Shown here: piece after piece, positions 1,776-56,520 of the stretch | Numbering within the stretch: the stretch's first letter is position 1 | Layout: every line of letters begins with the position of its first letter | Source: Schistocephalus solidus | Taxonomy: Eukaryota; Platyhelminthes; Cestoda; Diphyllobothriidea; Diphyllobothriidae | Direction: 5' to 3' | Length of the DNA stretch: 64,000 nucleotides | NCBI GenBank assembly: GCA_017591395.1 | Contig: WEDG01000289.1 | Span: forward strand, 62,001 to 126,000 | Notes under the pieces: generated by a model | What the model was told of the DNA's origin: nothing | The model's input: the letters and a program-made list of their open reading frames with translations, nothing else | Database searches by the model: none | Made by a program: the position numbers and the translations under genes

Positions 1776-4494
1776 CTTTGAGAAAAATGGAATAAAGGAA
1801 AAACTTTCAGTTGACTTCGCGTTGACGCTGATTTAAAAATATCTGCATTCTGCTCAGTACCTTCTAGGTACAGGCAGAAACCGTAATTGTGACAACAATT
1901 ACAGCTAAGAGTTCCGTTGTGTGCACATACTTAGCCTTGTTTTCGTGGTGGCCCATGTCTATCTGGCCGCCCTCAACCAATAGGAAGAAGCCCTTTTCAC
2001 TTTTTCTGAGGATTTTGATGGCTTTTTCTGTTAGATCCTTAAGTGTTGGATCGCCACTGGCCTTATCGAGGGCGTAGGGCAGATGAGAGGGAAAGAGAAG
2101 GCCTAAGGAAAGAAAAGCCCAAGAAGGAAGGTTGTATTGGGAGTTGGGCATAAAAGCGAATAGTAGTTCTGTTGGCATATCTGACTAAACATTCATCTCA
2201 CCCATGACGTATTCGGTGTCGTCGAGTGATATATTTTGATATTCAGCGACACTGCGAATCAAAGCGGCCCTTCTGCCTTTGTCCGTCTGAGCTTTCAGCC
2301 AAAGTTCAGGTAGTTTTTGGGAATCTGTACGTTCTCCTTTTATGGTTGGAGCGCTGGGTAGGTATTCAGTGTTGGGATAAAATTTGGCTTGTCCACCTCC
2401 AAGGATAACATTGATGTCAAGGTTATCGAGGGCCAACTGTTGAGCTATGTCCGTACAGTTGCAGTCAGGACCAATGCAGTCCGATCTAATGTCCCTAGAA
2501 ATCAGTTTGAGCAAGTGAGACTATCATCAGACTCATCATAAAAGCAGAATGCTCTGTTTCATATAACACTTTGTTCGTTATGATAATTAAGTTAAAATCC
2601 CTCGACAAAGTGGACGATTCATTATTTACATGTGCCTTTAGCTCAGAAGTGAAGGTTAAAATATATATATATACATGGAGGTAAAAACTATAATAGTTTT
2701 GGACAGTTACTTTGGTTTGTTACTACTGCACCTTTTTATCTTGAAAATACTTTCGATAAAACTTAGCTTTGGATGGGGTCAAGTTGAATTACCTCCTACA
2801 ATTGAACAACTCTTACTCATATGTGAAGTGTCTTACCATAATACTTAAAGGGGAACATGTTACCTGCAAGATAGCATGCTAAAGCTAGACGTGGTGCAAA
2901 ACTGCATAAAAACCGGTTAATTAACTTACTAGATTGAATACCTACTGAGGTAGCTGTTGGGGGCAATAGAAAATGTTCGATAGCTTCAACCAGTGAGTAC
3001 CTGTTGGGCACAGGGCAAATTATTGACCCGAGGTTAAGATTCATTTTCCTTTTACATGAAAGGCTTACCATAACCCCTGTTACTCAGCAATTAGATCAAG
3101 CACCAGTGGATTTTAGCTGGATTCCATAATCAACCATCCACAGTCTTCATACTATAAAGGTACCATTTTTTCCCTTCTTCTCATCTATCACACCCTATCC
3201 GTTCGTGTGCTTCAGCTACTGGCTATTACTCATGCAGCTCTCGTCATACTCACACACTTTCACAATTTGTCTGCTTTTGCATGAAACGTCATAAGCTGTA
3301 CATAAATGAGTGAGATTTCATTAAGCTTACTGTTCTAAGTAGATCCGTTTCCATCGCACTCTTGATTTCATTGTAATAAAGATTATTCGTGTTTTACCGG
3401 GCTCCACATCTCCTGTCTTTCTCTAATGCACTCTGCACGCTCTCAGAATTGACTAAAAAAATACAATTTTCCACTAGTATATTTATCAAAGGTCCACTCC
3501 TTTCCTATTTTTTATCCCAATGTGCGGTACCATCCTACTTAATAATTGTCTCCGGCCATTACAAGTAAAAATATTACGTCGATCGTTTACTTGGAACCTA
3601 AAGGCCAGGTTTATCAATTTGACCACCATTAACTTAAGTCAGTGAGGATCTCACCTGACAACTGTTGTCTTCACGCTACCTACTCTTGCAACGTAGATGA
3701 GAAGTGTGAATAATTGGAATTAATACTCACGTATCACACTCCCAGTTGCGATATGCCACATGTGCGTATGCTGCAGCTGGTGAGGCGTGAGTAACGCGAG
3801 TAGTCGTCACTATTCCTGTAGACTTGCCTGCCCGCGAGGCGGCCTTCAGAATGGACATCGTCTTCACCGACGCATTGTAGGCCAAACATTGTTTCAGCTC
3901 AACTGCTCCCGTCAAGCCAAGCATCCCCGTGCGGGTTTTTGCACCTAGATTAATTATAAAGTATATCATTTACCCTTAAAAGTCCTATTCTAGTTTCGGT
4001 TAAAATAAGGACATAAATTATAAGTAGTATAACCGATCTCAGTACAGAAACTGCGATTGAATTTGGGTGGCAAATCTCTCCTTACCTGTTAGGAAGGCTG
4101 TTGCGGAGCTGGCCGAGTCAGTGACCATGGTCTCCAGATCGTAAGTTCGAACTAGTGTGTTAAAGTCGAAGTTCTCAAAGCTGAACTGGCGTGCCCCTCC
4201 CGGGCTGTTGGTCGTCATGCCTCGATAGAACCTGCCCGCTGCGACAGTGGGTAAACCCATGCCGTCACCCAGGAAGAGAATAACATTCTTGGCTTTTTGC
4301 GTAGCCTGAGCAAACGGTGAAAAAAGGTGCAGTGCATCTTGAAAATTCTCCCGAGCCTTAGTCTCCCAATAGGATTGCGAGATCTCCTCTGGTAGAACTT
4401 GCACGGTCTGGACAAGGCAGACGCACATACAAGTAATGATAGCGATGGCTGTAAAATTAATTAGGTTCGGGCCAGAGGTCTGAATGCTTGCCAT
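1598..4494 (-). CDS. Alkaline phosphatase, 5 exons visible, C-terminus missing
   Basis: Alkaline phosphatase hydrolyses phosphomonoesters at high pH and is usually a GPI-anchored ectoenzyme. Joining 4494-4086, 3944-3731, 2494-2202, 2102-1931 and 1775-1598 gives 422 codons with no stop and consistent phases; animal enzymes are about 520 residues. Residues about 10-35 form a hydrophobic signal peptide. Catalytic residues seen are Asp77 (FLGDGMG), nucleophile Ser127 (TDSASSATAF), Ser191 (RVTHASP), Glu349/Asp354/His358 (EGGQIDMGHH) and Asp395/His396 (TADHSHTF). The last zinc His and the GPI signal would lie in unseen exons. All introns are GT-AG. The position next to the zinc-ligand Asp in the EGG motif is Met where vertebrate enzymes have His; it is not a ligand. 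No lesion is seen, so the gene looks functional apart from its missing end. Confidence 0.93.
1931..2102 (-). CDS. Alkaline phosphatase exon 4
   Basis: 172 bp between acceptor TTTCCTTAG and donor GTATGTG. Encodes residues 306-363: the conserved KGFFLLVEGG segment and IDMGHH with Mg ligand Glu349 and Zn ligands Asp354 and His358. Phase 1 in, phase 2 out; both joins restore the family reading (VMGLLF; NKAKKALTEM). Confidence 0.92.
2202..2494 (-). CDS. Alkaline phosphatase exon 3
   Basis: 293 bp between acceptor TTTCTAG and donor GTGAGATG. Encodes residues 208-306: the CTDIAQQL segment, the INVILGGGQAKFYP motif of the family, and EYVMG before the crown region. Phase 2 in, phase 1 out. Confidence 0.92.
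2495..3730 (-). other. Intron 2 of the alkaline phosphatase gene, 1236 bp
   Basis: Starts GTGAGT and ends TTTCTAG on the minus strand. It holds an AT dinucleotide run near 2658-2676. The 84-codon ORF at 2817-3071 has no family features. No other element is recognised. Confidence 0.75.
3731..3944 (-). CDS. Alkaline phosphatase exon 2
   Basis: 214 bp between acceptor ATCTAG and donor GTGAGTATT. Encodes residues 137-208 with GIVTTTRVTHASPAAAYAH, which supplies Ser191 (Mg ligand equivalent of placental enzyme Ser155) and the conserved TTTRV strand. The intron to exon 1 is only 141 bp. Confidence 0.93.
4086..4494 (-). CDS. Alkaline phosphatase exon 1 with start codon and signal peptide
   Basis: 409 bp from ATG at 4494 to donor CAG|GTAAG. 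Encodes the signal peptide, the NVILFLGDGMG motif (Asp77) and the nucleophile motif (Ser127). The ATG is chosen because it is immediately followed by a hydrophobic leader of usual length. The ORF overlapping upstream at 4461-4664 is in another frame and is not an extension. Confidence 0.92.
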
Positions 4495-6480
4495 TTGTTC
4501 ATAGACCTGACAGGCCGGCAGAGCCTTAAGTGTGCTTTTGGGTCATTGAAGTTGTACAAGTGTAAACAAAGCAACCAATGAGCCCTCACCGGGGGGAAGG
4601 TTCTGATTGTCGGGGTGTACACGCAACTTACTGCATGTGTGTATTCTCTAAAGGTCATAAACAATCCGCGATGTCACAAGTAGAAAGGTTGAAGTTGCTA
4701 ACCGAAAATTATTTATGGTTCCTGGTGGAGCAACTGAGTTCCGATATTTCACACCCACTTTTCTAAGTCTCTAAATATTTGCTGAAATGGCCATTCCTAT
4801 GTCCTTATCTTTGCCGGGAACACTTCTTTATTGTTGTGGGAAACGCGATCGCCCCCCCCCCCCCCCCCCAATGCGTTAGCTGTAGATAGAGAGGACTCCC
4901 TCTTATGGTGTCCTGTAATCAGGTCAAGACCCTATTTATTTATATTGACGTATTTCGATGAAAGCATGCATTGTAGTAGGTTTACGGCAAATCACAAGCC
5001 TTTTCGAGGCAGAAATGTAGAGGTCTTCGTACTAAAAATGCCTACCTTATATACGCCTTAGCTTGTTTTTAGTTTTCCCCTATGTGATCAGCAGATAAGC
5101 CAGTAAAAAGCCTATTTAAATAGCGCCTCACTGTCATGATTGTCAAGCACTTGCAAGCTACGTCATTTAAGCAGTGCGTGTTTGTGTTTTCAGTAAAGAA
5201 GCTTATTACAAACAGTACACGCTAAGGTGTTTTAAAAAGCCACATAAATTAACCAGTTTGTCATCAGACGAAATAAAGAACGAATCAATGGCTTATTAAA
5301 TGCATAATTTCAGAACCTTTAACTAGTCTCCTCTCCACTGCAGCCGAATGTTCCTCATCTTCGGCAAATATATGTAATAATCTCAGTCTGTATTATTGAT
5401 AAACTTTAGATAGGACTAAAAATAACTGCTTTAGGTTTCCGATATAGTTTACCCATATTCTATGGTATATTACCCATGATTTATGGTCTCGCTGGCACAA
5501 CACAGATTTTACTTGGCCGCTATTCAAAATAAACCTTATCAGAACTTATCGAATCATGCGTACTTCATACCTCTAATGAATCGTAAAGAGATTAATTAGA
5601 AGACAATGGAATGAGAATATTATTTAATTTTCCAACAGTAGCTACTGGAAGTGGGAAAATTTCCTTACACCAATCGACCTTTGAGCGATATAGGGGGAAA
5701 TCGATCAACTGATTTGAACTTCAATTTGAGTTCCTGCCAACTGCAAACTCGTCTTTGGTGTTTTGATCCAAATACGCAAATTATGCATATGACCTAGTTG
5801 TAAATTTGCACATTAATGCTTTTTTCACTACTTTTGAACGATAAACTGCCGCATTTTATGTCTCTTTCTAAGGGTACACTAGTTAAAAGGCCAGTCCATA
5901 ATAAAAGAAAGCCCCGAGATTTCAAGGCGGTTATGCAAAGGGAAAATACAAATACATTGCAACATCGATGAAAAACATACCAGCAGGATTACCAGATGTT
6001 CCTTTGGCTCGTCATATTTTTTTACGAGCCTTTGTGACACTAAAATTTCACAAGTGCATGTTGGGAAACCAATGCTTCTTCAAAGGGTATTGTGGGGATT
6101 TTATTTTAGTCCAAAGTGCACGTCTCCAACAGCTTTTCTTATGTAAGAGGTCCTAGATATCGGCCAGCTTTACCGAGGCACTTTACTTCTCCGTTCCTCA
6201 TTTGGCTTCTCTGAGGTTGGATGATTTTTGTTCTGGTTTATTATGCCGAACATTTTATCAAGATAGCAGGCCAACAACTTTAATTTTTGTACTCTACTAC
6301 AAATTTATGCACAGCAAAGTATGGTTAAAATTAAGCTCCCCCCTACGTGACCCATTACAGTGGACGAAATGGAAGCTTGCTTTCCCAACTTGCTGTTCTC
6401 GTTTGATGATAAACCGACGGTTAACTGACAAAATACAAGTACAGTTAACAAACCAGCCCGTCTTATATACTAAACTGCAA
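4495..6480. other. Intergenic, upstream of alkaline phosphatase
   Basis: No recognised gene. The 135-codon ORF at 6202-6609 (+) has mixed composition, no motif and runs into a repeat, so I do not call it. Promoter elements for the phosphatase gene must be here but I cannot assign them. Confidence 0.5.
4852..4869. repeat. Poly-C tract, 18 C
   Basis: Uninterrupted run of 18 C residues about 360 bp upstream of the phosphatase start codon. On the minus strand it is an 18-G run. Its length is probably uncertain in the assembly. Confidence 0.95.
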
Positions 6481-6484
6481 GATC

Positions 6485-8160
6485 AAACAACGTCAGTTCG
6501 ATCGTCGCATGCATCAATGTCCACCGTTTACCCCAAAACGGGGTGGGCCAGAGACGGTGGCTTCTGCTTTAGTAATTTCAAAATAACATCGGACTTGCGC
6601 AGCAGTTAACAGCGTGCCATGCATGAACTATACTCGGATTACATGGGGCTCACTAGGATCTGACCTCAGTGAGTCATTGAGCCGGAGCATCAGTCCCCGA
6701 ACCAATCATCCCACATGCATGCAGTAACGATAACGGGAACCCAGTTATTCCGTCATGTGACAGCACATTATGAAGATCTCTAAGTGCGTTAGATATATCA
6801 TTCTTGAGAATGCGCTAAAGGGCCGAGAGTATGGAGTCTCCAAAGTCGACCTACCTATTTCGACCCTCTCTCTCCTCACTGTCCGAGATGGTCAGCCATC
6901 TGATGCTGGGATTGCAACGTCAACTGACAGTTCGACCATCGCAAACAATAATGTTTGTCCCATCACATGACGGGTGTAGGTACAGGGACTTGGATGCGAA
7001 TTATATTATGTTGATTGTAAACTTGCACATCATCTGCCACATTGTCTCTTCCCTCAAACTTCTGAGTCTGGTGGCAAGACAGAGTCAAGAATATTGAAAA
7101 CAAGATCGGGAAAATTGGCAAAAAAAGCTAAACGGCTCGTCTACGCGTCCCACTCATGATATATTTGCATACGATGAGACAGGTTTTCACGGGAACAAGT
7201 AGTGGTCAACTGGGACATCATCTGAGTAGGCGTCATAAACGCCAACTTCGGGAGGTGCCATTGCAACCTGACTCTCAGCCCTTGGGAAACTAAGTTATCC
7301 CATCAGTTAGTAGCCTTCCGAGCAACTAATTTTAGTACACCGTGATAGTTTAATAGCTCGTCAAATTATTTATAATTTGGAATATGCGCTTAGTGTTCTG
7401 GACACGGAGTCATCAGAGTCAACCTCATAATTTCATCCCTCTATTATGCACTAATCCACTATCTGCATAAGTCGGTAATTTGATGTGGAGTTTGGGCCCA
7501 AGTGACTGACAAATCTATACAGCCCGTCTGCGCGTGTCACACACCGCTTGGCCATAACTGTAAATGCCGCTTTTTCAAACAAACTCGGGTTGCCGGATCG
7601 GATCTCACATTCCTTAGAGGTCATATTAATAATGAGCAATTTAGCCCGACTCACAGTCCATTTGTTGGCCACGCCACACAAACACACAGGGCCAACTGCC
7701 CGATCATAGTTTAGCATCAGTTGCCAACCTTTCAAGCCCCAAGAATTAATGCCTCGTGATAAATTCAAGCGCGTCAACTATGTTATATTCAAAAATGCGC
7801 TGAAGTGCTTTCGAATGTGAGACCTTCTAGTCGAGTTCACTCCCTCTTCCCTCTTTCAAGCAGCATTTCAACGTCGGAGCCGTCAGACATCACGGTAGTT
7901 CAACTGACGTAGTCTGCCGATGTCTACCGTATGCTCCACAGATGGGTGGTGCAGGGACGGTGACTTGTGCGCAAATTATTTTTAAGTGATAGTATACATG
8001 TAAGGCATCTACTGCACTCTCTCTTCCCTTACTCGCCTGTGCTCGGTGTCAAGACATAGTCAAGAAGACCGGAGGCTGGGTCGGGCGCAGATGAATAATC
8101 TCCAACGGAGTGGAGAGCGTGGTGCGGTATGAGCCGGCACCTTGGCGTGCCCAGGTTTGT
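6485..8160 (+). repeat. Family H degenerate repeat, about three units
   Basis: Non-coding repeat recognised by recurring landmarks in fixed order: GACAGTTCGACC, TCACCGTATGCTC, GACGGTGACTTGTGCGC, CACTCTCTC, GTGTCAAGACAGAGTCAAG, GGCCACATTA, CAAACACA, then GTCAGTTGACAACCTTCC, CACCGTGATAG and GCGCTGAA. Landmarks recur here near 6485, 6925 and 7890, and again at 18985-20100 (+) and 25440-25870 (-). No ORF is conserved between units. Probably the non-coding part of an old mobile element. Confidence 0.6.
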
Positions 8161-14709: not shown

Positions 14710-15143
14710 ATGGCCCCTGTTCGACGAAGCAAAAAGCCTCCACCGGATGGTTGGGAGCTAATAGAGCCCACTTTAGAGGAACTAAATAAGAAATGCGTGA
14801 AGCGGAGACTGATCCACATGAGGGTAAACGCAAGGTTGAAGCAGAATGGCCAATATTCCGAATTCATCATAAACGATCGAGATTTCTGTTTGAACTGTAT
14901 TATAAACGGAAAGCAATCTCCAAAGAACTGTATGACTACTGTTTGAAGGAAAGGATCGCAGATGCCAATCTTATCGCAAAATGGAAAAAGCAGGGCTACG
15001 AAAATTTGTGCTGTTTACGCTGCATACAATCTCGCGATACTAATTTTGGCACGAACTGCGTGTGTAGGGTGCCAAAGTCGAAATTAGAGGAGGGTAAGGT
15101 CGTTGAATGTCAGAATTGTGGTTGCCGTGGCTGTTCCGGGTAA
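14710..15143 (+). CDS. bud31: BUD31/G10 splicing-factor homologue, intronless, one 1-nt frameshift
   Basis: BUD31 (G10) is a small Cys-rich zinc protein of the spliceosome. The ORF from ATG 14710 reads [20 protein letters not shown] and ELNKK, then a shift into the frame from 14793 continues [15 protein letters not shown] to [19 protein letters not shown] and CGCRGCSG, stop at 15141-15143. The two pieces together cover about 144 residues, the family length, and all zinc-binding Cys are kept. The junction is at 14791-14793 (AAA), where one more A would restore the frame. No intron is present. It may be a young retrocopy, a true single-exon gene with an assembly error, or a recently broken gene. 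No poly-A tail is visible within about 100 bp after the stop. Confidence 0.85.
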
Positions 15144-18984: not shown

Positions 18985-20100
18985 GACCCTCGAGTCTGGC
19001 GATGTTCACCGTATGCTTTAGACCAGATCGAAAGCAAGCATGATGACTTGCGCTCCATATACTTTACTCTCTCCTCCACCTCGGCCCAGTGTCATGACCA
19101 AGTCAAAATGTCTGGAAGCAGGAGAGGACGCAGGTCCTTGGCACGGCCGGAGGCACCCCTAGGCATGCCGTCCCACCTGGCTCGTATCCCACAGCGTGGA
19201 AGTGCCGCAGCGGCCACATTATGAAGGAGCCGCTGTAACCTGACTGAGTCCGTCATTCAGTAACTCTACATATACATGCACAAGGCTGACTGCGCTATCC
19301 GAGTTATTCCGTCAGTTGACAACCTTCCAACCCACGGTTTCTAGCGTACCTTGTTAACTTCAAGCACATCAGATTGTTTATAGTGAGGAAAATGTGCTGA
19401 ACCTTCGACTTCAGTCTCGATCCCCGTTTCCAGGCCCCAACCAACGTCCGAGCCGGTCATTATAATGGTGTTGGGGATGGGCGCATTCTGCTGACATACC
19501 TAATGACCTCGTCTGTGTGTGAGTACTATAGAGGCCGCATTAAGAAAGAACCATTACAGTCTGACTCTCATTCCGCCAGTCAGCCACTCCACAGAAACAC
19601 ACTGAGCTGACCGCGCGGTCCAAGTTATCTCGTCAGTTGGTCACCTTCCAGGCCAAGGCTTTTAGCGCACCGTGATAGCTTCAAGCGCGTCAGATTTTTA
19701 TAGGGAAGAAAATGCGCTGAGCTATAGACCTCACTTGATATTCCAATTTCCAGGCCCCAGCCACCGTCCGAGCTGAACATTGAACTGGTCCAGGGAATGG
19801 GCGCAGCTGCCGATGACCTCACCTACACGTATTACGTACACGATCTGCCCCCCAACACAAGCACAAGGACGCCCCACAAAAGGGTTTAAGCGGCTCACAT
19901 ATCACATGCGTGAGAGTACCTTAGGTCACGTTAAGACGGAGCCATTGCTTTTTGACCTAGACCACCAGTCGGCCACTCCACGCAAACACATATTGAGCAG
20001 ACTGCGACGTCTGAGTTCCATCGTCACTTGGCAACATTCCAAGCCAAGGCGCTTAGTGCAACTTGATGGTCTTGGGCTCGAATGACACAGGCAGCAGAGG
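18985..20100 (+). repeat. Family H repeat array, about three units
   Basis: The landmark GTCAGTTGACAACCTTCC recurs near 19311, 19632 and (as GTCACTTGGCAACATTCC) 20024, each followed by CCAAGGCTTTTAGCGCACC-like text and a GCGCTGA..C block, and preceded by CACTCCACGCAAACACA. Spacing is about 320-390 bp, so here the family is tandem. ORFs inside (91-101 codons) are not conserved between units. Confidence 0.65.
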
Positions 20101-21639: not shown

Positions 21640-22400
21640 GACAACGGCGACTCCATCGATGTACCTGTGACTTGTTCGTACACGGTTCCATCGAAGGGGA
21701 AGCAGGTACTAAAGCACTGATTCAGGAAGCCGATAAGGCTCATTGTCGTCGTCGGCTTGTATGGCCAACGTCAGCGCAAGAGCAGTTAGCACACGGAATG
21801 CGGTATATAACGTTAGTTTGCTGCTCTATGGGCATGAGGTCTTTCACTCGGGATATTGTTGCGCGCAGGGACGACGCCGGCTTGTGAGCAAATGGGGATG
21901 GCGACGGGTTCAATTGTCAAACGATCGCTTCGAAAATGTCAGGCATATAGGCTATCTTCATTGTCATCTCCCTTGCTCAGAAATCGGCGTCGTCCCTGCG
22001 CGCAACACTATCCCGGATAAAAGACCCCATACCCAGAGTGCAGAAAGCTAATGTCATCTACCGCATTCCATGTGCTAACTGCTCTTGCGCTGGCGCTTGT
22101 CATACAGGCTGACGACTTGGGACGCATATTAACGAACATAAGCTAGCCATCCGCCCATGTGACCCTTTGCCACTCGTGTTTGCACGCACTCTTGAATGCG
22201 ACTATAGTTTCAATTGGGATGGAACTGAAATTGTGCCATGGCTAACACCAAGCAGGCTTAAGAATGTCTGGAGACCTGGAACTATAACATGAACAGGATC
22301 AACCGCCATGCCGATCTAGACGCTCGTTACGAAGGCCTGCGTGTCCGGCTCACTGACTTGCGCCCATGATCGAAAGTCAGCCGCTTATCTATACTGGACC
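21640..22400 (+). mobile_element. Penelope-like element 3' remnant with GIY-YIG endonuclease fragment
   Basis: From about 22048 the plus strand reads KANVIYRIPCANCSC, then TG, a stop, RLGTHINEHKLAIR, CDYSFNWDGTEIV and NRINRHADLDARYEGLR across small frame changes, to about 22367. IYRIPC..C...(Y.)G.TGR.L..R..EH is the GIY-YIG signature at the C-terminus of Penelope-like retroelements. The Tyr-Val-Gly-Gln expected after the Cys pair is mutated, so the domain is dead. The reverse transcriptase is absent. The left part is an inverted copy of the start of this segment. Confidence 0.65.
21747..22121. repeat. Imperfect inverted repeat made of two Penelope-like fragments
   Basis: Arms 21747-21902 and 21961-22121 are reverse complements along about 155 bp, sharing for example CGCAAGAGCAGTTAGCACA, GGAATGCGGTA and GTTGCGCGCAGGGACGACG. 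The spacer is about 58 bp. The minus-strand reading of the left arm also gives TNVIYRIPCANCSC, so both arms carry the GIY-YIG start in opposite directions. Confidence 0.75.
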
Positions 22401-23070
22401 ATTAGAGTTTCACTGTCTCACCACCCCTCCCCAAAACACAGTGAACCACAGCTGAAACTCTTAGCATCTCCGATCTTGTCGCACTGACCTCTGCCCCATC
22501 CTGAATCGATGACCGTTAGCTCCGCCGTCTGAGATATATTGAATCGCCATCCCCATTCCCCTCCGACACAGGGAGCCCTAAGAGTTCTGCCTCCTCTCCC
22601 CCGGTCCGAATCTTACCGTACTTATGTGCTATTCCTTCTAACACCCAAGTTGTCTTTCTGTGAGTGTCTGTCTTGTCGCGCAAACTGGTCTAGTCGGATA
22701 ATTTCGTTTTCTTCTCTGTTCCTTAGCAATTGTGTACAGGAATTTGACTGCCATCGTGCTGTGTTTGCAGACTATATAGAAATCTGGAAAGTTATCCACA
22801 ATATTGCCGACGAAGCCAACTTCCAAGAAACTCTTAGTCAACTGAACGAGTGGTCCCGCAGATGGCTCTTGTCCTTCAAATCGAATGAATGCGTGCTGCT
22901 AGGTCTGGAAAATCGAGATCAGGTCCCTGATGCGCGGCCCTACTATCTTAGCGAATGCCACTCCGAGAAACAGAAACACAGAAAGATCTTAGCATTTGGA
23001 GGACAGACAATGTAAAGCCTACTTTACAATTTTGCAAGGCGGTTAAAGCAGCAACTTCAATGCTAAAAAT

Positions 23071-23440
23071 GGTAGGAATGGCTTGTATGGCCGCCTTGGG
23101 AACAGGAACCACCCGTGTGGCTTTGTGTCAAGTTCTGGGTAAATTACGTTTGAGATTAAAGTTAATGTTAGGTTTAAGTTTAGGGTTGGGTTTAAAGTTA
23201 GAATCGGGATTATGTTCAGGGTTAAGATTTGGGTTCGTGTAACCTGTAGGATCTAGGTTTAGAGTTGGGCCAGAGTTATGATTAAGGTTAAAGTTTAGTT
23301 TTTTGTTAGGGTTAGTGTTAGGGTTAAGATACTGGAATATTTACCATTCCAGAAATTCATCGCAAGGTCACTGATGTTAAGTGTGCGGGGCGCGCTCATG
23401 CTTGTGTCCTGGTTAGGCGGCCATACAAGTCATCCTTGCC
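23071..23440 (+). mobile_element. 370-bp inverted-repeat element with telomere-like core, copy 1
   Basis: Begins GGTAGGAATGGCTTGTATGG and ends with the inverted match CCATACAAGTCATCCTTGCC; similarity between the arms continues inward to about 90 bp (GTGGCTTTGTG.. against GTGACCTTGCG..). The core 23130-23335 is GGTTA-rich. It lies inside LINE G copy 2 exactly between the codons for SML and YAI, so the LINE gives the empty site. The two LINE halves share CT at the junction, a possible 2-bp target duplication, and AAAAAT lies before the left arm. No coding capacity. A second copy in opposite orientation is at 30188-30595. Confidence 0.75.
23130..23335 (+). repeat. Degenerate telomere-like (TTAGGG)n core
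   Basis: Repeated TTAGGGTT, TTAAGTTTAGGG, GGTTTAAAG and GTTAGGGTTAGTGTTAGGG units. TTAGGG is the telomere repeat reported for flatworms. The run is interstitial and imperfect, more eroded in the middle than at the right end. Confidence 0.8.
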
Positions 23441-24060
23441 CTGTACGCCATCAGGCGGACATTTAAGGTTTTCAATGAAGGTTGCGTTTCTAAAGTCTTC
23501 GGTAGGCTTGCAAGGCTGCTTCTTGAATTAACTATTCAGGACTGGAGACCCTGGATGCAATGGAATTACAATCTACTCGAAAGGGTGCATAGACGAGCCT
23601 CAAAATTAGTAAGAGGTCATGGTATAATATCAAACACAATCCGCCAAACAATCCAAATATTTATCCCCTGAGTTATAGGCAGTTGGATGGAGACTTGATA
23701 AAACCTTTAGATTTCGTGCGTGGCTTGGACTGCGCCCTTCTATGTGATGATTTTTTCCAAGTCGCACTGCAGCTGGCCTACGGGATCATTATTTCAAACT
23801 ATGTGTCCCAAGGAAGATTAAATGTGAGCATGTTTTTCCAACCGTCTCGTTGAAACGTGGAACAACCTACCCGAGGCGATTTTAATGGTGACGGCTGTGT
23901 ATATATTCAAATATCGGCTTGACAAACCTGCTGCAGTAACAAGCAGACTCTGTAACAATTAAACATTAAAAAACTTTGTACTATTTGATTAAGTCTACAT
24001 TCACTTGATGCTACAGTTCAAGGCGCAATCCTTTTTTCGTCAAATGCATTGAACTGATCC

Positions 24061-25439: not shown

Positions 25440-25870
25440 AGTAAATTTACCGCCTCAGACGGTGGCTGGGGACTGAGAATGTGAATAATTACATTGACGG
25501 CCCGGCGAACTTTCCTCACTATAAGCAACCTGACGTGCTCGGAGCTATCATGGTGCGCTTAAAGCCGCAGCTTGGAAGGCTTCCAACTGACGAGGTAAGT
25601 TGGATCGTGTAATTGTCCCAATGTGTTTGTGTTGAGTGACCGACTGGTGGACTGAAAGTCAGGCCGCAATGGCTCCTTCCTAATGTGGCCCCTATTGAAC
25701 TCCTACTGCGCGGGATCCGAGCCAAGTGTGGTGGCACGTCTAGGACTGGTTCTGATCGTGCCAGTCATTTGTGCCTTCTTCCCTCTTTCGGCTTCTTGAA
25801 TTGGTCATGACACCGAGTTAAGTAGGGTAGGGGGAGAGAGTGCGTTAGATGCAGCGCAAATCTACTCTTA
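25440..25870 (-). repeat. Family H repeat, single copy in reverse
   Basis: The reverse complement matches 19040-19470 in order: CACTCTCTC, GGTGTCATGACCAA, GGCTCGGATCCCGCGC, GGCCACATTAGGAAGGAGCC, GTCGGTCACTCAACACAAAC, CGTCAGTTGGAAGCCTTCC, AGCGCACCATGATAGCTC and TTATAGTGAGGAAA. This is the clearest evidence that the family is interspersed as well as tandem. Confidence 0.7.
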
Positions 25871-29460: not shown

Positions 29461-30187
29461 TATGCTTTTAGCCGCTGTCTGGCTTCTGGTGGGGCGCGGG
29501 AGTGATTTCCAAGGCAGAGCAGGACGAGTGAGTTTCGTAACCCATCGGTCAGTGGTCATTAACTAATAACGATCAACATCACATCTGCTGAGCGAGTGAG
29601 GTCAATAACTCTGTCATTCTGGACAACGAAAATAGCCCCACATTGCGGCTGCTCATCTACGCAAAGGGCAGTAGCCTTCATCTGCGCATCCCAGCATTAA
29701 AAATCCACCGTATTGACAGTATAGCTGTCAGGGGCGCAAATGGTTCTGATTGACCCATCTTCTTGATTTCCTTAACTTACTTGCCCATTAGGTTGTCAGA
29801 CGTCTTCGACCCCCGTTGCCATCAAGTTGTAAAGAATCCAGGTATAGACAAGCCCGAACGACTGGACATGGAACGAGCCAGAGACTTTGAAGGCTGTAAC
29901 TGGCTACTTATAAACTGACATATTTATTCAGATATCAGTTTGAGGGTTAAACATCTGGAAACAAGTATATAATAATATTGGCGGTGGGTGTAGCAGTTCG
30001 AGGCAGAATTAATCGGTGATAAGGGTGTCTCTTGAGTGGAGCGATGGCGGTTATTTCTGGAGATCTCTGTGTCAAGTCCTCGCCTATAATTTTGGGTTTT
30101 CACTCTATCAGGTAGTATATATATTTGGATCTAGCTTTTGAGGTAGGTTTATAGAAGAAGTCAAACCAACTCGAGCTAACAATATAA
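29461..30187. other. No recognised feature
   Basis: No gene or shared repeat seen. Confidence 0.4.
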
Positions 30188-30595
30188 GGTAATGATGCCT
30201 TGTGTGGCTGCCTAAACGGGACAAGGGAAAATTGACTAACCATCCGCTTAAGATAGGTGACCCTACGATACATTTCAGCAAGGGTATATATACCTGTGTC
30301 TTAACGCTAACACTAGCCCTAACATAAAACTAAACTGTCACCGTAACATTATCCCTAGAACTACCTTAAATATAACCTCAAAAGTAACATGATATAATCA
30401 TTATACCTTAGCTTGATCACGACCCTAAACCCAACGCTGGCTGTACCCTCAAACTAAAACCGAACCTTAAACTTACCCTTACCCTCACCTCAATCCTTAT
30501 CGTAATTTCCCCAGAATCCGGTGCAAAGTCACATACATCGTGCATGGTTCCTTTTCGAGTGTCCAGTGTAGGTGGCCCTACAAGACATCCTTACC
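30188..30595 (-). mobile_element. 408-bp inverted-repeat element with telomere-like core, copy 2
   Basis: Begins GGTAATGATGCCTTGTGTGG and ends CCCTACAAGACATCCTTACC, the inverted match. The reverse complement of its right arm continues like the left arm of copy 1 (GTGACTTTGCACC, GATTCTGGGGAAATTACG), so the two copies are the same element in opposite orientation. The core 30300-30500 is rich in CCCTAA-like units. Flanks are AT-rich (TATAA left, AAATA right) and no clear target duplication is seen. Confidence 0.7.
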
Positions 30596-30849
30596 AAATA
30601 ATACTAATAATTAACGGTAAGAACACGTTATTATAATAAACATTTCACAAGAAAGTTCAATCGTGCCAGATCAGACCCTACGGTTTAACTCGGTAACAGA
30701 CTTGGTTACCATTCGCGTTAAAAAGTATGCCAAAAGAAAATGTTGCAGGCAAGCGGAAGAATGCACCTTCCCAAATGATTCAATATTCGGTGTATATAAG
30801 GGAGACAGATAGAGGTTTTGAAACCCCTATTTACAGATAGAAGCTAGCA
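30596..30849. other. No recognised feature
   Basis: Short AT-rich spacer. Confidence 0.4.
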
Positions 30850-35640: not shown

Positions 35641-36159
35641 GATCGATAATACGATTCCAAACTAATAAATAAGAGAGACAAGACACGCCAAAGGTAACGA
35701 TTTGACGGAATCAGCTGACGACGCCGACCGGTGAAGAACAAAAGCAAAAGGTGGAAAATCAGTAATGTCACTAAACCCCAAACCCGTTGTAGTGTAGCGC
35801 ATTACAGTTAATAAATTCCAACTTAAACAACTATTGGTAAATGCGAGTTATGTAAATGTGTAACAAGTGGAATTAGTGTAAAAAAGTAGTTTTTAAAATA
35901 AAGATCAAACTTCTAGGGATCACTCCTATAGTACGCATCACCAGGACGTCAGTCAAATCTGACCCTGGGCAGCCAACCATGATGACAAAAAGTGTCGGCC
36001 GTTCGTCAGCGTGAAACGGCTATGGGCTGTCAGCTCGATTTCCTCCTTCGTGGGGTGCCTGCTGACTTGGCTGATAGTCTGGTTGATCGCATTGCCGGGG
36101 CCTGAACGTTGTCTGCTTCGGCAGCATCATGAAGCCCGGTGGATGGGCCGGCCGAGTAC
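35641..36159. other. Probable 5' LTR or leader remnant, otherwise unassigned
   Basis: Lies directly upstream of the primer-site match on the minus strand, where a 5' LTR would be, but I could not align it with the LTR-like end near 34640-34848. A 69-codon minus ORF at 36030-36239 has no motif. Confidence 0.3.
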
Positions 36160-41904: not shown

Positions 41905-42491
41905 AATTAAACTGAGAATAACCTATTGAGTGCAGCCCAGCATGGGTTCCTCAAAACAAGGTCTTGTGACACATGTCAGCTACCTTTCTTCGATCATGTT
42001 CTACAATCTAGGGATAATGGCTTTGCACTTTACATAGTCTATTTCGATTTCACCAAGGCCTTCGATCGTGTTGACCATGCCCTTCTTCTCCTGAAACTCT
42101 CCTCTTTCGGTATATGTGGTAAACTTCTGAGCTTGATATCTTCTTACCTTAGTTATCGTACACAACATGTTAAGATCTCCAATGCTATCTCAAACTCGGC
42201 ACGTGTGAGGAGTGGAGTTATTCAGGGTAGTGTGCTAGGCCCGCTTTTATTTTGTCTTTTTGTCAATGATGTGCCAGGTTTATTTCGAAATGGTAGGCAT
42301 TTTATGTATGCTGACGATTTAAAAGTTGCCTATCGATACAAGCCGGCAGATCGCGACACCGTGCTTGATCTATTAAAAAATGATCTCGAGGCCTTTGCCC
42401 AGTGGTGCTGCACATGGCGCCTTTCCCTTTCTTGGCACAAATGTTCCGTTATGGTTGTCGGTGACAACCATCAGCCTCATCTAAGCATAGA
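41905..42491 (+). mobile_element. LINE A1, reverse transcriptase fragment, 5'-truncated and split
   Basis: From about 41926: AAQHGFLKTRSCDTCQL, IVYFDFTKAFDRVDHALLLL, RSGVIQGSVLGPLLFCLFVN, FMYADDLKVAY and WRLSLSWHKCSVMVVGD. All catalytic motifs intact in one frame. It stops being LINE A at AGCATAGAT (42491) and resumes at GATGGCCACGATATAAATG (49291). Against copy A2 (50244-50806) about a dozen differences over 565 bp are seen by eye. Confidence 0.85.
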
Positions 42492-43827
42492 TAATAATAA
42501 ATAATAATAATAAATTGTATATTTAAGGCACAGAGAGCCCCGTCATTTCAAACTTAGTATCGCGGTATAAATAAATACAAAGTGGATAATTGCTGCACTA
42601 TGTGAGCAGCCATATTAACAGCAGAAATGAACAATATGGTAGGCATATCCGATTCAGAACGATTTGCCATTTTTAAAACAACAGTCAACAATCTTTAACA
42701 TAAAAGGTGAACAAGAAAAGAAGCAGTAAAAAACGCCTACAGTTAAATCGGAGGCGGAGTTCAGCGAGCCGCCAATTTAAAAAAAAATAGGAGAAAAAAC
42801 TGCTTCACTAAAAAATTAATAGCTAGATGCAATGGGATAGTGCTGTGATGTTGCTGACACCGTATGAGGGTTCGGAACGCTCCTTGTCGTGTGAGAGATA
42901 ATATAGCAGTCAGAGCTACTGTTTGTAACCACCAGTGGAGGTGAGAGAGGACGAACTCATCGTGGACACCAGGGTCAAAACGAAGAGGGGACAGTAGAGG
43001 TCATGAGATCATCATCGAGATGCGACCTTGCCGACTGCATAGTCCATCAATCAAAGAGGCAAAACCATCAGAACCCGCCTTGATCCTCAACTGAACCTGG
43101 AGACCATCGTCGGGGTTGCACAAGCGGAGGAAAGTACCAAGGTTGGCTTCGAGTCTTCTAACCCACAGAAATTTAATGTCTGCTAACTGGCATCTATCCG
43201 CATAAGAGATACTGGATCCAGGAGAGAAAATAGTCTTCGAGTAAAAACCTTCTGAACTTTTTCAATCTTACTGCGGTCAGAGGCGTTCATCAGTCCAAAG
43301 AGGGGACAGCAGTATTCTAGAATAGGAAGAACAAACATGCGGTACAGGTCTAACTTTATTTCCGGAAGGAAGAAATTATGCGATAGAAAACCACATATCT
43401 GTGCAGCCTTTGCAGAAATTCAATCTGCATGAGGCGATAATGCTAGCTTGTTCGTATAACTTAAACCTAAGTCTTTTATGGTTGATCGTTCTTAAAGTGT
43501 ACTATTTTGAAAAACGAGGGGTCCAGGAAGCATAGCGGGGTCAAAACACATAAAACTACTCTTGGATGAAGAAAACTCCATCTGCCAAGTACAGCTCCAA
43601 CGTGAGAGCATAAGTAGATCAGTGTTGATTTTATCCACGCAACTATTGGCAGTGTCGTTAGAAAATGAATAAATGCACTTGAGATCATCAGCGTAAACGA
43701 AATTTTGTGAATTTGTGAGTAAAGCTGAAATTTCGTTTATGTACAGAATAAAGAGAAATGGACCTAGAACCGTGCCTTGAAAAACGCCACTCGTGATCGG
43801 TTGAGGCGTCCAGTTGCTATTACCTAC
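42492..43827 (-). mobile_element. LINE B1, 3' part, inserted in LINE A1
   Basis: Minus strand: NSNWTPQPITSGVFQGTVLG, PFLFILYINEISALL, NFVYADDLKCIYSF, SCTWQMEFSSSKSSFMCF, then with frame changes RFKLYEQASIIA, LFSPGSSISYADRCQLADI, GSDGFASLIDGLC, a 3' UTR and an (ATT/ATA)n tail at 42492-42520. The YADD site is intact, but several indels follow. The 5' remainder is at 49220-49290, beyond the inserted Gypsy element. Confidence 0.85.
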
Positions 43828-44338
43828 TGTAACCGACCCGTATTAGATACGCGACGAATCCCAAATTAATAACGACGCCCAAGAGAGAACAAGACAGTAG
43901 GCAAGGGGAAGAGTTTAGGGATTAGTTGAAGCTATAAATTGGAACTGTATTTGGGGCTTGGTCCTGGGAGGATCCTTTGGTAGGGATTGGCTGTCCTAGG
44001 AGAATCCTTTGGTAGGGATTGGCTGTCCTGGGGAGAATCTTCGGGAGGTCCGTGGAGAAGAGAGGCGATGGCTGGAGAAGCGTCAGAGAGCGGTCTCCGG
44101 TCCAAAGTGATGAGCCTCAATTCTCCTCGGTATTTATGTCATGTTCTCCAGACGATTTGATAGGTTTACATAGAATAGACCAATGGGTATGCGTAAATCA
44201 CACGAAAACAACCAATAGGGTTAAGAGTTAATATTTTATAGACTTCCGGGCTGGCGCTAGTAATCTGGGCTACTGGAGTAATCTGCTAGTAATTTGGGCT
44301 ATAAGAGAAAATCAAAAAACTTTGATTCCATCTTTACA
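43828..44338 (-). repeat. Gypsy 3' LTR, 511 bp
   Basis: Plus-strand start TGTAACCGACCCGTATTAG, end TTGATTCCATCTTTACA. Contains a direct repeat of AGAATCCTTTGGTAGGGATT-like units near 43965-44035. Differs from the other LTR at three sites seen by eye (C/A in TTGGTC/ATGGG, C/T in TTCTC/TCTCGG, A/G in AATCA/GAAAA). Confidence 0.95.
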
Positions 44339-44350
44339 TTGCCCTCTCCT
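44339..44350 (-). promoter_or_regulatory. Polypurine tract of the Gypsy element
   Basis: Minus-strand AGGAGAGGGCAA lies directly before the 3' LTR. It is the expected primer for plus-strand DNA synthesis. Confidence 0.7.
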
Positions 44351-44610
44351 GCGTAAAGCTTTTCGCTGTCCTCAGCGAGCTCAATGTCATTTCGCAAAAC
44401 GCACGGAGTCCCTTGAATTTTGAATGTTATAAGGCATTACGGTTTCTTCTCCACCTTCGGGTGGGATTTCAACCCACCTCTCGACCCCCTCGTGATCTAC
44501 GTAACGCACTGCATCGCCTGGGCGTTCTGCTCTGCGGTTATCTTCCATTGGCCTCTCCCCCAGTTTAAGTCTATTAAAGTGAACCGTGAATTCAGAGGTG
44601 AAAGGTCGAT

Positions 44611-45599
44611 TTAATCTTGAATGACGCAGGTCGTATCAGAGAGCATTCTGATGACGGTATATGGCCCTGACCAGTCCATTACTAACTTACTCGGTAATCC
44701 TTGGGGAGTCGCATGCTCCCTAAGCCAAACCACATCACCGACATCATATGGACACCCATGTGCCAGCCTGTCATAGTGTTCCTTTTGGTGCCTCTGGGCT
44801 CCTTGTAAGTGTATCCGTGCTTCCTCAGTGGCTATACGCATTTTCTTATGGAGTGCAGCGACGTAAGAACCAACCGGTATTTGATTATTCTCAAGAGGAA
44901 CCTGTAGATCCTCTGGTATTCGCATTTCACGACCACAGGTGAGTGCAAAAGGCGTCTGTTGTGTCGAAGAGTGAACCGTGGACCGGTATGCAAGCATGCA
45001 CGCTGGCAACGCATCATCCCACGTGAAGGGAGCCTGACGATCTACAAAAGCCTTTAGTAAACCAACTAAAGTCATATTCGTCCGCTCCACTTGACCGTTT
45101 CCCTTGCGGGTGGTAAGCCGTGGTGCGCGTCTTATTGACCTTTAAGTATTTGCACAGACTGTGAAGGACCGCGTTTTTCAAACGAGGACCCTCGATCCGA
45201 ATGGATCTGTTCTGGTGCGCCCCATCTACATACCCAATTGTTAAAGATGGCCTGAGCAACAGTGTCAGCCGACATGTTGGGAAGGGGTTCCGCTTCAGCC
45301 ATTTTGGTAAAGGAATCAACCATCACTAGAATATATCGGTTGCCCCGAACTGATGGCGGTAGTGGTCCCACTAAGTCAACGCCTACACGTTCGTTGGGGT
45401 ATCCCGTCAGAATAGGCTGAAGAGCAGCCCTATTCAGCTGTCGTGGCGGTTTGATCTGATTGCACAAGGTGCAATACCGAATAAAGTTCCACACTGACCG
45501 CTTCAAGTTAGGCCAGTAGTATCGGCGCCTAAGGGCCCACTCGGTCTTATGGATGCCCACGTGCCCCAACTGTGTGTGGATTCTATTAAGAACCCTCAT
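44611..45599 (-). pseudogene. Gypsy integrase, two frameshifts
   Basis: Frame 1 (45599-45132): zinc-binding HTQLGHVGIH and YCTLCNQIK, then GVDLVGPLPP (first Asp) and QIHSDRGSSFE (second Asp). Frame 2 (45250-45080): NAVLHSLCKYLKVNKTRTTA, YHPQG. Frame 3 (45090-44611): VERTN-type segment with the catalytic Glu, then AYRSTVHSSTQQTPFALTCG and GDVVWLREHA, WSGPYTVIRM (C-terminal GPY/F motif), stop at 44613. The D,D-35-E triad is complete across the frames. Integrase inserts the cDNA; 4-bp target duplications fit. Confidence 0.88.
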
Positions 45600-45719
45600 C
45601 TACCATGGATAAGGGTAGAAGAATACGTCGCGGGTATTGTTCGCCATCGCGATAGAACAAAAACGTCATTATCCATAAATAGTTTGTCCCACACCGTGTG
45701 CAAGCAACGCGTCTCATAG

Positions 45720-46280
45720 CTATGGCCTCTCAGTTCGAACTGCACTAAGTGGTCGAGAACCACTTAACTTCCCTATGATAAATCGGGCCAATATGAGGAT
45801 CTCCTTGCTGCGCTTGAGCCCAAAGACGGCTTTGGTCGTCTTGTAGTGACACGGCACTAATGTTAATGTCCGTACATGATGGACATTCGCCATGGGGACG
45901 GTAGGGTTTTTCGAGAGAGCATCAGCATTATTGTGCTGACGTCCTGGACGGTATACGCATTCGAACTCATACCCGGCTAGTCTCTCTTGCCACTTAGCGA
46001 CCTGTCCTTCAGCATTCTTAAAGTTCTGCAACCAGGTCAGAGAGCTATGATCCGTGCGCACGATAAAAGGCCGGTATTGGAGGTATGGCCGGCATTCCTC
46101 CACGAAGTGGGTGAGTGCGAGCATCTCCCTTCTGGTCACACAGTAACGGCGTTCGGCCTTTGTCAGGGATCGGTTTAGATACTGAATGACGCCCTCTGTA
46201 CCATCTGGTTGTTGCTGGGATAGGACGGCGCCTATGGCAGTGTCACTAGCATCGGTATCTAGAATAAATTTCCTGGCGTC
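45720..46280 (-). pseudogene. Gypsy RNase H domain
   Basis: FILDTDASDTAIGAVLSQ (first catalytic Asp), then YCVTRREMLALTHFVEECRP (catalytic Glu), FIVRTDHSSLTWL (Asp), QERLAGYEFECVYRPGRQHN and NADALS (last Asp). Mostly open. Upstream, the A7 run (plus strand) near 46303-46309 breaks the frame from RT. RNase H removes the RNA template during reverse transcription. Confidence 0.88.
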
Positions 46281-46559
46281 ATTGCTTATGTCAGGAAAAA
46301 CTAAAAAAAGGAGTAGTGCACAACTTATCCTTCAACGTCTGGAAGCTACTAGTACAACCAGCCGTCCACTTAAATTGTACTTCCTTCTGGGTCAGCTTGT
46401 GAAGCGGACCAGCTAGGTGAGCATAGTCTTTAATAAATCTTCGATAGTAGGAAGCCAATCCTAGAAAAACGGCGGACTTCAGTTACGTCCATAGGGTGGG
46501 CCACTCGCGGATCTGCCTAACTTTATCCTCGTCCGTTTCTATGCCAGAGGCCGAGACTA

Positions 46560-47219
46560 CATGCCCTAAAAAAACTTGACACGAGGTCTTATAAAAACAC
46601 ATTTACAGGGCTTAAGGGTGAGACCAGCCTGTCTGAGACTGGTAAACACAGCACGGACATTGCTAATATGACTATCAAAAATCCTTACCAAGAACAATTA
46701 TGTCATCCATATAAACTAGGCATGACTTGGGAATGAGTTGAGCCAGGACTTGATTCATTAGCCGTTGAAACGTACTGGGAGCATTAGCTAGGCCAAAAAG
46801 GCATTGTCTCAAACTCGTAAAGACTCCGAGGGGACTGCGAAAGCAGTCTTCTCTCTGTCAGTGGGTCGCACTTCTACTTGCCAGTAACCGGCTGCTAGAT
46901 CTAAAGTAGAGAATACCTGATTACCCGAAAGGGCATCTAGGGTGGCATCAATCCTGGGCAGAGGGAAAGAATCCTTAGTTGTTACTGCATTTAATTTGCG
47001 ATAGTCAACACATAACTGCATAGTGCCATCCTTCTTCATAACTAACACGACCGGAGACGACCAAGGTGAATTGGACGGCCTGATAATTTTCCGGTCTAAC
47101 ATATCATCGATCATGGCTTTTAACTGTGTCTGGTAGAACACGGGTAATCGCCTAGGAGGAATCTTCGTGGGCCGAGTCACACCTGTATCAATCTCATGCT
47201 GGGCCACATTAGTACGTCC
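46560..47219 (-). pseudogene. Gypsy reverse transcriptase, frameshifted
   Basis: EIDTGVTRPTKIPPRRLP, IIRPSNSPWSSPVVLVMKKD, CVDYRKLNAVT, FSTLDLAAGYWQVEV (first catalytic Asp), then a frameshift near 46825, FGLANAPSTFQRLMNQVL, CLVYMDDIIVLG (YMDD), and another shift before DSHISNVRAVF, LKPCKCVF. At 46568-46574 a plus-strand A7 run needs one more base to read FFLGHVVSASG. A TAA at 47220-47222 separates it from protease in the same frame. Confidence 0.88.
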
Positions 47220-47222
47220 GAG

Positions 47223-47996
47223 TTAACGGCCGTCCCAATCGAAGATATCTTTAAACTCCTCTATTAAACTACATAATTTAGACAAACTATTCTTGTCAAG
47301 ATTAGGGGGCACTAAATTATTGACATCTTCTAACTTGAATGCATTAATTACAGGTTGACTAACCGGTACCTCGGTCCGGAAAGGCACCTTAGTACCACCG
47401 ACATGGAGAGTGTTAACGTTAAAGTCTAAGGAACATTTAAAAGCATGAAGAAAATCAGCACCTAATATGCAGTCCCAGGCAATATCAGGACAGACAACGA
47501 ACTTATGAACAAAAATAAGGTCACCTATCTCCAAACTAAGCTCTATCATGCCTTTGTGTCGCAATGTGGCTCCGTTGGCCGTCTTCAGGCTAACCTTAGG
47601 CTTCGTGCAATACTTCACTCTAGCCTGAAGTTGAATGAAAATGTTCTGCCTAATAATGGAGCAGCCGGCTCCTGAATCAACTAAGCATGGCAACTTAGTA
47701 TTTCCTATGGTTGCATCTATGGCAGGGTAGTGTGGTTTGTAACCTACGTTTGCAACAAGCATATCAGATATGAATATGCACTTATCAAGGTCTTCTTCCT
47801 CACCAGAGGTGATCACATGAACACCTGGGGAAGGTGGAGGGTGGGTCGGACGACCACGTTGTTGCCTCCAGTTCCCGCGTCGAGGAGACTGTGGAGAGCC
47901 TCGCCAAGGAGAGGTCGGCTGTGGAGGGCCGCGCCACGGAGTTTGGGGTTGTGGAGAGCTACGCCAAGGAGTGGGCTGAGGAGGGCCCACTGCCAT
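47223..47996 (-). CDS. Gypsy gag tail and protease
   Basis: Begins with four Pro/Trp/Arg/Gly repeats (PWRSSPQPQ, PWRGPPQP, PWRGSPQSPRRG), then an aspartic protease: CLVDSGAGCSIIRQN (catalytic Asp in DSGA) and CILGADFLHAF (second psi loop). Frame is -1 relative to gag, as in elements that make Gag-Pol by -1 shifting; I see no clear A/U-rich slippery heptamer, so an indel is also possible. Ends at TAA 47220. Confidence 0.85.
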   Translation of the reverse strand: MAVGPPQPTPWRSSPQPQTPWRGPPQPTSPWRGSPQSPRRGNWRQQRGRPTHPPPSPGVHVITSGEEEDLDKCIFISDMLVANVGYKPHYPAIDATIGNTKLPCLVDSGAGCSIIRQNIFIQLQARVKYCTKPKVSLKTANGATLRHKGMIELSLEIGDLIFVHKFVVCPDIAWDCILGADFLHAFKCSLDFNVNTLHVGGTKVPFRTEVPVSQPVINAFKLEDVNNLVPPNLDKNSLSKLCSLIEEFKDIFDWDGR

Positions 47997-48682: not shown

Positions 48683-48685
48683 GGT

Positions 48686-48705: not shown

Positions 48706-48708
48706 AAA

Positions 48709-55179: not shown

Positions 55180-56520
55180 TTTTGTCGGGTACAAGACTAT
55201 AGCCATGACCTGAGAAACGATGACAATTTCCAGATATCAGAAATGGAAAACAAAGCTGAACACTTTTCACAGTTCTTTCGGTCGTTTTTCACTAGAGAAG
55301 CTCTTTTTATTTCCATCTAGTTGCGACACTATGGGAGCGCCAATTATTCGGGATATGCTCTTTCGAGAAGAGGTGGTCTTTGAAGAACTAAAAAGTCTGA
55401 AGGCATGCAACTCCCCTGGCTCCGACGAGATTCCAGTAAAGCTACTCCTCGAACTTGCTCGAGAGCTGGCGAAACTGCTTTCCTTTCTGTGTTAGAAATC
55501 GTTCAATATGGGAATTCTTCCTACCGACTGGGAAACAGCCCACATCACATCGCTTCACAAAAGTGGTAGTCGTGCATTTGCTACAAACTACAGGCCTGTC
55601 AGCCTGACCTCAATCTGTTGCAAGGTTATGGAGACGATGCAGACGATTTCCAAGAAAATCTTCGTCAATTGGACGAGTTCTCCCGCAAATGGCTCTTGTC
55701 CATCAACTCAAACAAATGCATTCTGCTACGTCGAGGAAATCGAAATCAGGTCACTGATAAGCGACCCTACTATTTGAACGGTTTGCCACTCCGAAAAGCA
55801 CACACACAGAAGGATCTTGGAGTTTCGATGAAAGAAAACCTGTAGGCTTCTATGCAATGTTACAAGGCAGCTAAATCCGCCAATTCAATGCTGTACGCTA
55901 TCAAGTGTGCATATAAAGTATTCGATAAAGACTGCTTTTCCACAGTCTTTGGTACGTTTGTAAGGCCACATCTCAAATATGCGATCCAAGCCTGGCGACC
56001 GTGGACCCAACAGGACTACAACATGCTCGAAAGGGTGCAGCGGAGAGCCACAAAATTAGTAAGAGTTCAAGGTGAGCTGTCATATGCGATTCGCCTAAAT
56101 TATCTAAAGCTCTATCCTCTGAGTTATAGGCAGTTGCGCGGACACTTGATACAAAGCTTCCGTTTCATGCGTAGCATAGATTGCGCCCTCCTATGTGATG
56201 ACTTTTTCCAACTTGCCACTAGGAATAATCTCCGAGGTCATCCATTCAAAGTAAGAGTGCCCCAAGTAAGATTGGATGTGAGGAAGTATTTTTTCACCAA
56301 CCGTGTCTTGGAACCGTGGAATAACCTAACTGAGGCAATTTTAATGTCCCATTCTGTGGACACATTCAAACATTGGCTTGATAAACATATATTGCTGCAC
56401 CACGAACACTATGTGACTACTTAAACTTAACAATATCAGTGTACCACGTAAATCTGCCTGCATTCACTTAACTCTAACTTCTTTACATTGCTGCTTTTCC
56501 TTGCTATTTTTATGTAACAA
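55180..56520 (+). mobile_element. CR1-like LINE, family G copy 1, reverse-transcriptase core deleted
   Basis: Fingers region 55220-55630 (SLKACNSPGSDEIPVKLLLE, LPTDWETAHITSLHKSGSRA, NYRPVSLTSICCKVME), then directly thumb DDFQENLRQLDEFSRKWLL (55640), LPLRKAHTQKDLGVSMKENL, a TAG at 55843, and an open C-terminus 55852-56424 (FGTFVRPHLKYAIQAWRPW, ERVQRRATKLVRVQGEL, LYPLSYRQLRGHLIQSFRFM, NNLRGHPFKVRV). The palm with both catalytic Asp motifs is absent: a deletion at about 55632-55640. It may have moved in this form with help from another copy. Confidence 0.85.
55852..56424 (+). pseudogene. LINE G1 ORF2 C-terminus, fully open
   Basis: 190 codons without a stop, the best-kept C-terminus in the window. 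ANSMLYAIKCAYKVFDKDCF here is the uninterrupted form of the sequence split at 23071-23440 in copy G2. Confidence 0.82.

Follow-up and report, generated by a model that had tools for sequence, protein, structure and literature searches.

The window considered here, a stretch of 64 kb of tapeworm DNA taken at its full length, carries an inverted-repeat element with a telomere-like core inside a LINE (copy 1), and a second full-length copy at 30188-30595 (copy 2) that the preliminary description of this DNA had overlooked. The two copies lie among genes and repeats of several kinds. An open reading frame (ORF) at 14790-15140 spans most of the pre-mRNA-splicing factor BUD31 in a single uninterrupted frame (E 2e-56), and minus-strand ORFs at 1565-1930, 2188-2520 and 4042-4542 match alkaline phosphatase with the gene order kept and are probably exons of one gene; the alkaline phosphatase exon is matched best by two unnamed proteins (58% and 53%), and its named matches are, among others, from Spirometra erinaceieuropaei (47%) and from two Hymenolepis species (49% and 51%). 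A U3 small nucleolar RNA at 35901-36110 is a full-length Rfam match of 53.1 bits. Direct repeats at 43828-44338 and 48709-49219, which are 99.4% identical and each contain a 32-bp minisatellite, flank protease, reverse transcriptase, RNase H and integrase ORFs, and the whole (43828-49219) is a young LTR retrotransposon, presumably Ty3/gypsy-like by its gene content. Two LINE reverse transcriptase copies (41906-42492 and 50224-50809) are 97.4% identical, and some LINEs of the window are therefore recent; a LINE endonuclease ORF has its closest match in Schistocephalus solidus (81% over 65%). The protein matches thus give good support for a cestode host. There are also two closely spaced direct repeats of about 515 bp (57741-58252 and 58359-58873, 89.5% identity) and a dispersed repeat family at 19045-19805, 25449-25862 and 7615-7803 (67-73% identity, both orientations).

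Telomeric repeats in the interior of chromosomes are usually taken as scars of chromosome fusion or of break repair. Among cestodes, TTAGGG probes are described as labelling both the chromosome ends and interstitial sites on five chromosomes of Atractolytocestus huronensis (PMC6458723), and telomeric repeats are described at one chromosome end only in Hymenolepis microstoma (PMC7653826). That MITEs can carry tandem repeats has already been described (PMC6947457). In this study, we examine the ends, arms, core and insertion sites of the two copies, and what they imply for the nature and the movement of the element.

Results

Copy 1 interrupts a LINE

The coordinates of both copies and of the interrupted LINE are collected in Table 1. 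LINE homology stops at 23064 and restarts at 23441 with nothing aligned between, and the LINE frame runs on across the insertion (AATSM before it and LYAIRRTFKVF after it, against SANSMLYAIKCAYKVF). The split frame, whose uninterrupted form had been placed near 55880, and the empty site, said to be known to about 2 bp, both hold: the uninterrupted form lies at 55884-55898 with the frame restored, and the two LINE halves overlap by 2 bp, CT. The LINE shows a net gain of 378 bases, which exceeds by 8 the 370 counted from GG to CC. Just upstream of the LINE piece at 55.6-56.4 kb stands NYRPVSLTSICCK, a recurrence read by eye, and the same motif occurs in the ORF at 53665-54054, which matches Pfam RVT_1; for the 192-aa ORF at 55846, Pfam gave no match.

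Table 1. Coordinates of the two copies of the element, their ends and cores, and the sequences around them
Feature	Position	Strand	Remarks
Copy 1, inverted-repeat element	23071..23440	+	370 bp; boundary common to four ends, and LINE empty site
Copy 1, left TIR	23071..23096	+	starts GG; identical to right TIR at 22/26
Copy 1, right TIR	23415..23440	-	identical to left TIR at 22/26
Copy 1, core of degenerate TTAGGG	23146..23338	+ (TTAGGG on + strand)	133/191 phased bases are TTAGGG; top hexamer
Possible left 8-bp target duplication, CTAAAAAT	23063..23070	+	3/8 match; geometry only, 378 = 370 + 8
Possible right target duplication, CTGTACGC	23441..23448	+	identical to the 8-mer of the empty site
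Interrupted LINE, left part	22821..23064	+	76.7% identity to LINE piece at 55.6-56.4 kb
Interrupted LINE, right part	23441..23921	+	72.3% identity to LINE piece at 55.6-56.4 kb
Empty site in uninterrupted LINE relative, TTCAATG followed by CTGTACGC	55884..55898	+	homologous piece 55635-56386; part aligned to the interrupted LINE 55641-56380
Copy 2 of the element	30188..30595	-	408 bp; from blastn and arm scores; flanks unrelated to copy 1
Copy 2, end corresponding to copy 1 left TIR	30570..30595	-	identical at 21/26
Copy 2, end corresponding to copy 1 right TIR	30188..30213	+	identical at 21/26
Copy 2, core of degenerate TTAGGG	30278..30497	- (CCCTAA on + strand)	141/217 phased bases are TTAGGG
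8-mer beside copy 2, CAATATAA	30180..30187	+	5/8 match to 30596-30603
8-mer beside copy 2, AAATAATA	30596..30603	+	5/8 match to 30180-30187

When the outer 26 bp of copy 1 are compared, left against reverse-complemented right, the inner 15 positions are all matched, and inward of these ends the arms pair only with gaps. The best local alignment of arm against arm scores 18.5 (300 shuffles: mean 7.7, maximum 14.0), and the arms can be paired across about 90 bp when gaps and loops are included. The imperfect inverted arms of about 90 bp that had been described are thus real as inverted ends, and only the wording "near-perfect" for the outer 25 bp proves slightly generous, since the termini agree at 22/26. 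In single-strand DNA folding, none of 100 shuffles reaches the stability of 23069-23443 (z -3.07).

Neither copy carries a recognisable gene: each of the 12 frame readings (six per copy) contains 4 to 20 stops, and the longest open run in any frame is 70 codons. The copies are in this respect like MITEs, which are short and lack a transposase gene. The antisense frame of copy 1, used as a protein query, had two weak matches (E 0.25 and 6.1), both to repetitive LTLT sequences, and an RNA-family scan found no match within the element.

Copy 2 has the same ends at an unrelated site

By blastn, the copy 1 unit matches 30188-30346 of the window at 73.75% along 160 aligned bases (E 1.9e-21); the remaining half of this locus is matched more weakly (E 4.5e-4 and 0.019). 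The left arms of the two copies align with a score of 31.5 and the right arms with 32.0, as against maxima of 15.0 and 14.0 in 300 shuffles each, and the two arms of copy 2 pair with each other at 23.0 (maximum of 300 shuffles 15.0); the crosswise pairing, copy 1 left arm with copy 2 right arm, scores 14.5, equal to the best of 300 shuffles and no higher. Copy 2 agrees between its own two ends at 20/26. All four ends begin with 5'-GG at one common boundary, every pairing among them being identical at 20-22 of 26 positions, and TIRs are in this way common to the copies, as in a MITE family. The flanks are unalike: over the 64-75 bases compared they score 5.0 and 6.0, where shuffles average 7.2 and 7.0, and the common ends thus stand at unrelated sites in the two copies available. 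The preliminary description had looked for several complete copies that agree in their ends and differ in their flanks as the mark of a transposon, and for homology that always extends into the same flanks as the mark of a larger repeat; copy 2 has the expected ends and its flanks diverge, although two copies fall short of "several".

The local alignment of the copies overruns the GG end by 1 base and the CC end by 5, of which 3 match, and the boundary was therefore set from the four ends jointly; it was picked from the shared GG after the sequence had been inspected. With gap columns omitted (30, 19 and 37, respectively), the left arms of the two copies are identical at 64/80 positions, the right arms at 70/92 and the cores at 130/174, the last being near the values for the arms. 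These identities suggest that both copies are old.

With up to 3 mismatches allowed, the window contains 9 occurrences of CTTGTATGGCCGCC, of which 4 are the element ends (shuffle mean 3.2; none of 100 shuffles reached 9). A profile of the two copies, which match it by construction, found no third copy in the 64-kb window, and searches with TIR patterns retrieved no stretch from the viral contigs and none from the genome contigs. A looser TIR pattern retrieved nine stretches from viral contigs, all of them matching the copies over 19-20 bases only; they were judged to be chance, because those 19-20 bases are the search pattern itself. A near-palindrome of 369 bp (21748-22116), 76% identical to its own reverse complement, precedes copy 1 by about 1 kb. 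It was considered as a third copy and is taken as a separate inverted repeat: the 13 bp that it has in common with the TIR, GGCTTGTATGGCC, are at chance level, and it has no broader likeness to the element.

The telomere-like core is common to both copies

The core of copy 1, which had been put at about 200 bp of degenerate TTAGGG, measures about 190 bp and does have a 6-base period, with autocorrelations of 0.51, 0.49 and 0.50 at lags 6, 12 and 18. TTAGGG scores highest there among all cyclically distinct hexamers; in copy 2 it ranks third, behind AAGGTT and AGTGTT. When the window was scanned for TTAGGG in 200-base stretches every 50 bases, the best scores were 73.0 for copy 1 and 57.5 for copy 2 against a window median of 6.5, and every one of the top 14 stretches listed overlaps one of the copies. 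The two strongest TTAGGG-like clusters of the 64 kb both lie within the element.

The two cores are homologous and run in the same direction relative to the ends. Their alignment scores 57.5, whereas 300 permutations of the copy 2 units gave a mean of 27.2 (sd 4.7) and a maximum of 41.5, which makes it most likely that the common ancestor of both copies already had the array. Alignment scores carry the homology, and not percent identity: in 40 simulated array pairs the mean identity was 0.719, so that the observed 0.753 is little above it, while their maximum score was 42.1. Moving the register of the alignment by 6 or 12 bases lowers the score slightly, to 45.9-55.5, and moving it by 30 bases lowers it to 18-28. 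Deviations from TTAGGG that the copies share (32 the same, 11 different) were considered as a sign of inheritance and set aside, because 39 of 300 unit permutations reach 32.

Target duplication

The 8-mers on either side, which would be the putative duplications, agree at 3/8 in copy 1 and at 5/8 in copy 2. At copy 1, agreement at 3/8 or better has a chance of about 0.30, and decay of a true duplication to 3/8 or less has a probability of 0.027 if identity is kept at 75% per site and of 0.17 at 60%; an alternative reading takes the 2-bp CT as the overlap and AAAAAT, six bases, as an addition at the left end. At copy 2, agreement at 5/8 or better has a probability of about 0.037 in its AT-rich flanks. 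Exact 4-bp flank matches at copy 2 are meaningless as a duplication, because exact matches of at least 4 bp are found in 620 of 1000 random pairs with free offsets. A TTAA or TA duplication, judged by eye, does not fit the ends common to both copies.

Discussion

Judged by anatomy, a unit that has TIRs but no gene and stands at two unrelated sites is a non-autonomous DNA transposon, and we regard the element as probably an old, MITE-like transposon of a cestode with a telomere-like core as its passenger. Its ends are not of the hAT type; hAT ends start with CA or TA, and those of the element start with GG. The superfamily that resembles it in several respects is Merlin (IS1016-related), whose TIRs measure 24-462 bp and start with 5'-GG and whose target duplication has 8 or 9 bp; for Merlin, TIRs of high imperfection and tandem repeats in the interior, like those of the element, are reported, as are sequences from nine flatworm species (PMC8101967). 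In the element, GG is found at 4/4 ends, the TIR of 26 bp (22/26 in copy 1 and 20/26 in copy 2) falls within the Merlin range, and the length of the insertion is compatible with an 8-bp duplication. On the other side, the duplication is illegible in its letters, no telomere-like core is described for Merlin in the part of PMC8101967 drawn on here, and a Pfam scan of all 46 window ORFs of at least 110 aa found no DNA transposase, hence no DDE_Tnp_IS1595 partner among them; the ORFs that matched encode reverse transcriptase, RNase H, endonuclease, integrase, protease, alkaline phosphatase and BUD31, with one sub-threshold DUF. Because the duplication agrees at only 3/8 and 5/8 letters and no transposase was recognised among the 46 ORFs, Merlin is a lead and not a membership: that the duplication is of 8 bp, and that Merlin rather than a Mutator-like or other family is the source of transposase, is a tentative and weakly supported reading that falls somewhat short of an even chance.

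About as much can be said for a foldback element or some other inverted-repeat type, or for a short member of a superfamily other than Merlin, such as Mutator-like; this has some weight without being the expected reading. The pairing of the arms over some 90 bp with gaps and loops and the unclear duplication speak for it, but the conserved part is a discrete terminus that starts with GG and extends for 26 bp or little more, and not a long repetitive arm. It is improbable to a high degree that the two sites are parts of a larger dispersed repeat or segmental duplication whose ends differ from those given here. With only two copies, both of them old, and an alignment that slightly exceeds GG and CC, the ends might be misplaced; farther out, however, the flanks are unalike, and LINE homology restarts directly at the right end of copy 1.

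The core invites two further explanations. Interstitial telomeric sequences made in break repair consist of telomeric repeats without shared flanking arms, and the arms here are common to both copies. That telomeric repeats were put in at double-strand breaks by telomerase- or capture-mediated repair, so that interstitial tracts arose by chance beside filler sequence, would suit the telomere-like core and the want of a clear target duplication at copy 1, but repair of breaks makes nothing like some 170 aligned non-telomeric arm bases with the same ends at two unrelated sites. Copy 2 already largely refutes this explanation, to which we give hardly any credence. We consider it rather unlikely that local slippage of a short G/T-rich motif built up the core within the element, its likeness to telomeres being coincidental. 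The two hexamers that outscore TTAGGG in copy 2 fit such growth, as do the MITEs with other internal tandem repeats described in PMC6947457; against it, TTAGGG is the best hexamer in the core of copy 1, which is nearer a regular array than that of copy 2 (133/191 versus 141/217), and TTAGGG probes are described as labelling cestode telomeres (PMC6458723, PMC7653826).

For a transposon with a telomere-like passenger, we infer movement by transposase. An enzyme encoded elsewhere would recognise the GG-starting TIRs, over 26 bp or somewhat more, excise the unit and insert it at staggered cuts. The (TTAGGG)n tract would have been in the element before the two copies parted, and would then have decayed as passenger DNA to about the extent of the arms. 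How the tract came to lie between the ends is a matter for speculation; it may have been captured in gap repair after an insertion near a telomere, or filled in by telomerase or slippage.

Telomere-bearing elements (TBE) of Oxytricha are ciliate elements of the Tc1/mariner type that encode a transposase and have telomeric repeats at their ends, whereas in the tapeworm element, which is without such a gene, the repeats are central. The likeness lies in TBE being transposons named after telomeric DNA (PMC12242761). Similar in build are the tandem-repeat MITEs Xstir of Xenopus and (GTCY)n of insects, likewise gene-less TIR units with an internal array, although as described in PMC6947457 their arrays are not telomere-like, and their hosts differ. 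The interstitial telomeric sequences of A. huronensis likewise place TTAGGG signals, seen by FISH, inside cestode chromosomes, but they are cytological signals near centromeres, tied in the account of PMC6458723 to chromosome rearrangement and with no element described there. The view that no flatworm family of this kind has been described is in keeping with a literature search of titles and abstract openings, in which none of the matches listed concerns a flatworm transposon with a telomere-like core.

Transposition of the element could be a route by which telomere-type repeats enter chromosome interiors. With a telomere-like array inside a transposon, dispersal by transposition becomes an alternative to fusion and break repair, and the weight of the element in the spread of telomeric repeats hinges on copy number, which is two in these 64 kb. 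The broader proposal, that a flatworm MITE family, perhaps driven by Merlin, scatters oriented telomere-like arrays and is the source of a real share of the interstitial telomeric DNA of cestodes, is one that we put forward with some doubt. If it is true, telomere signals inside chromosomes need not imply fusion.
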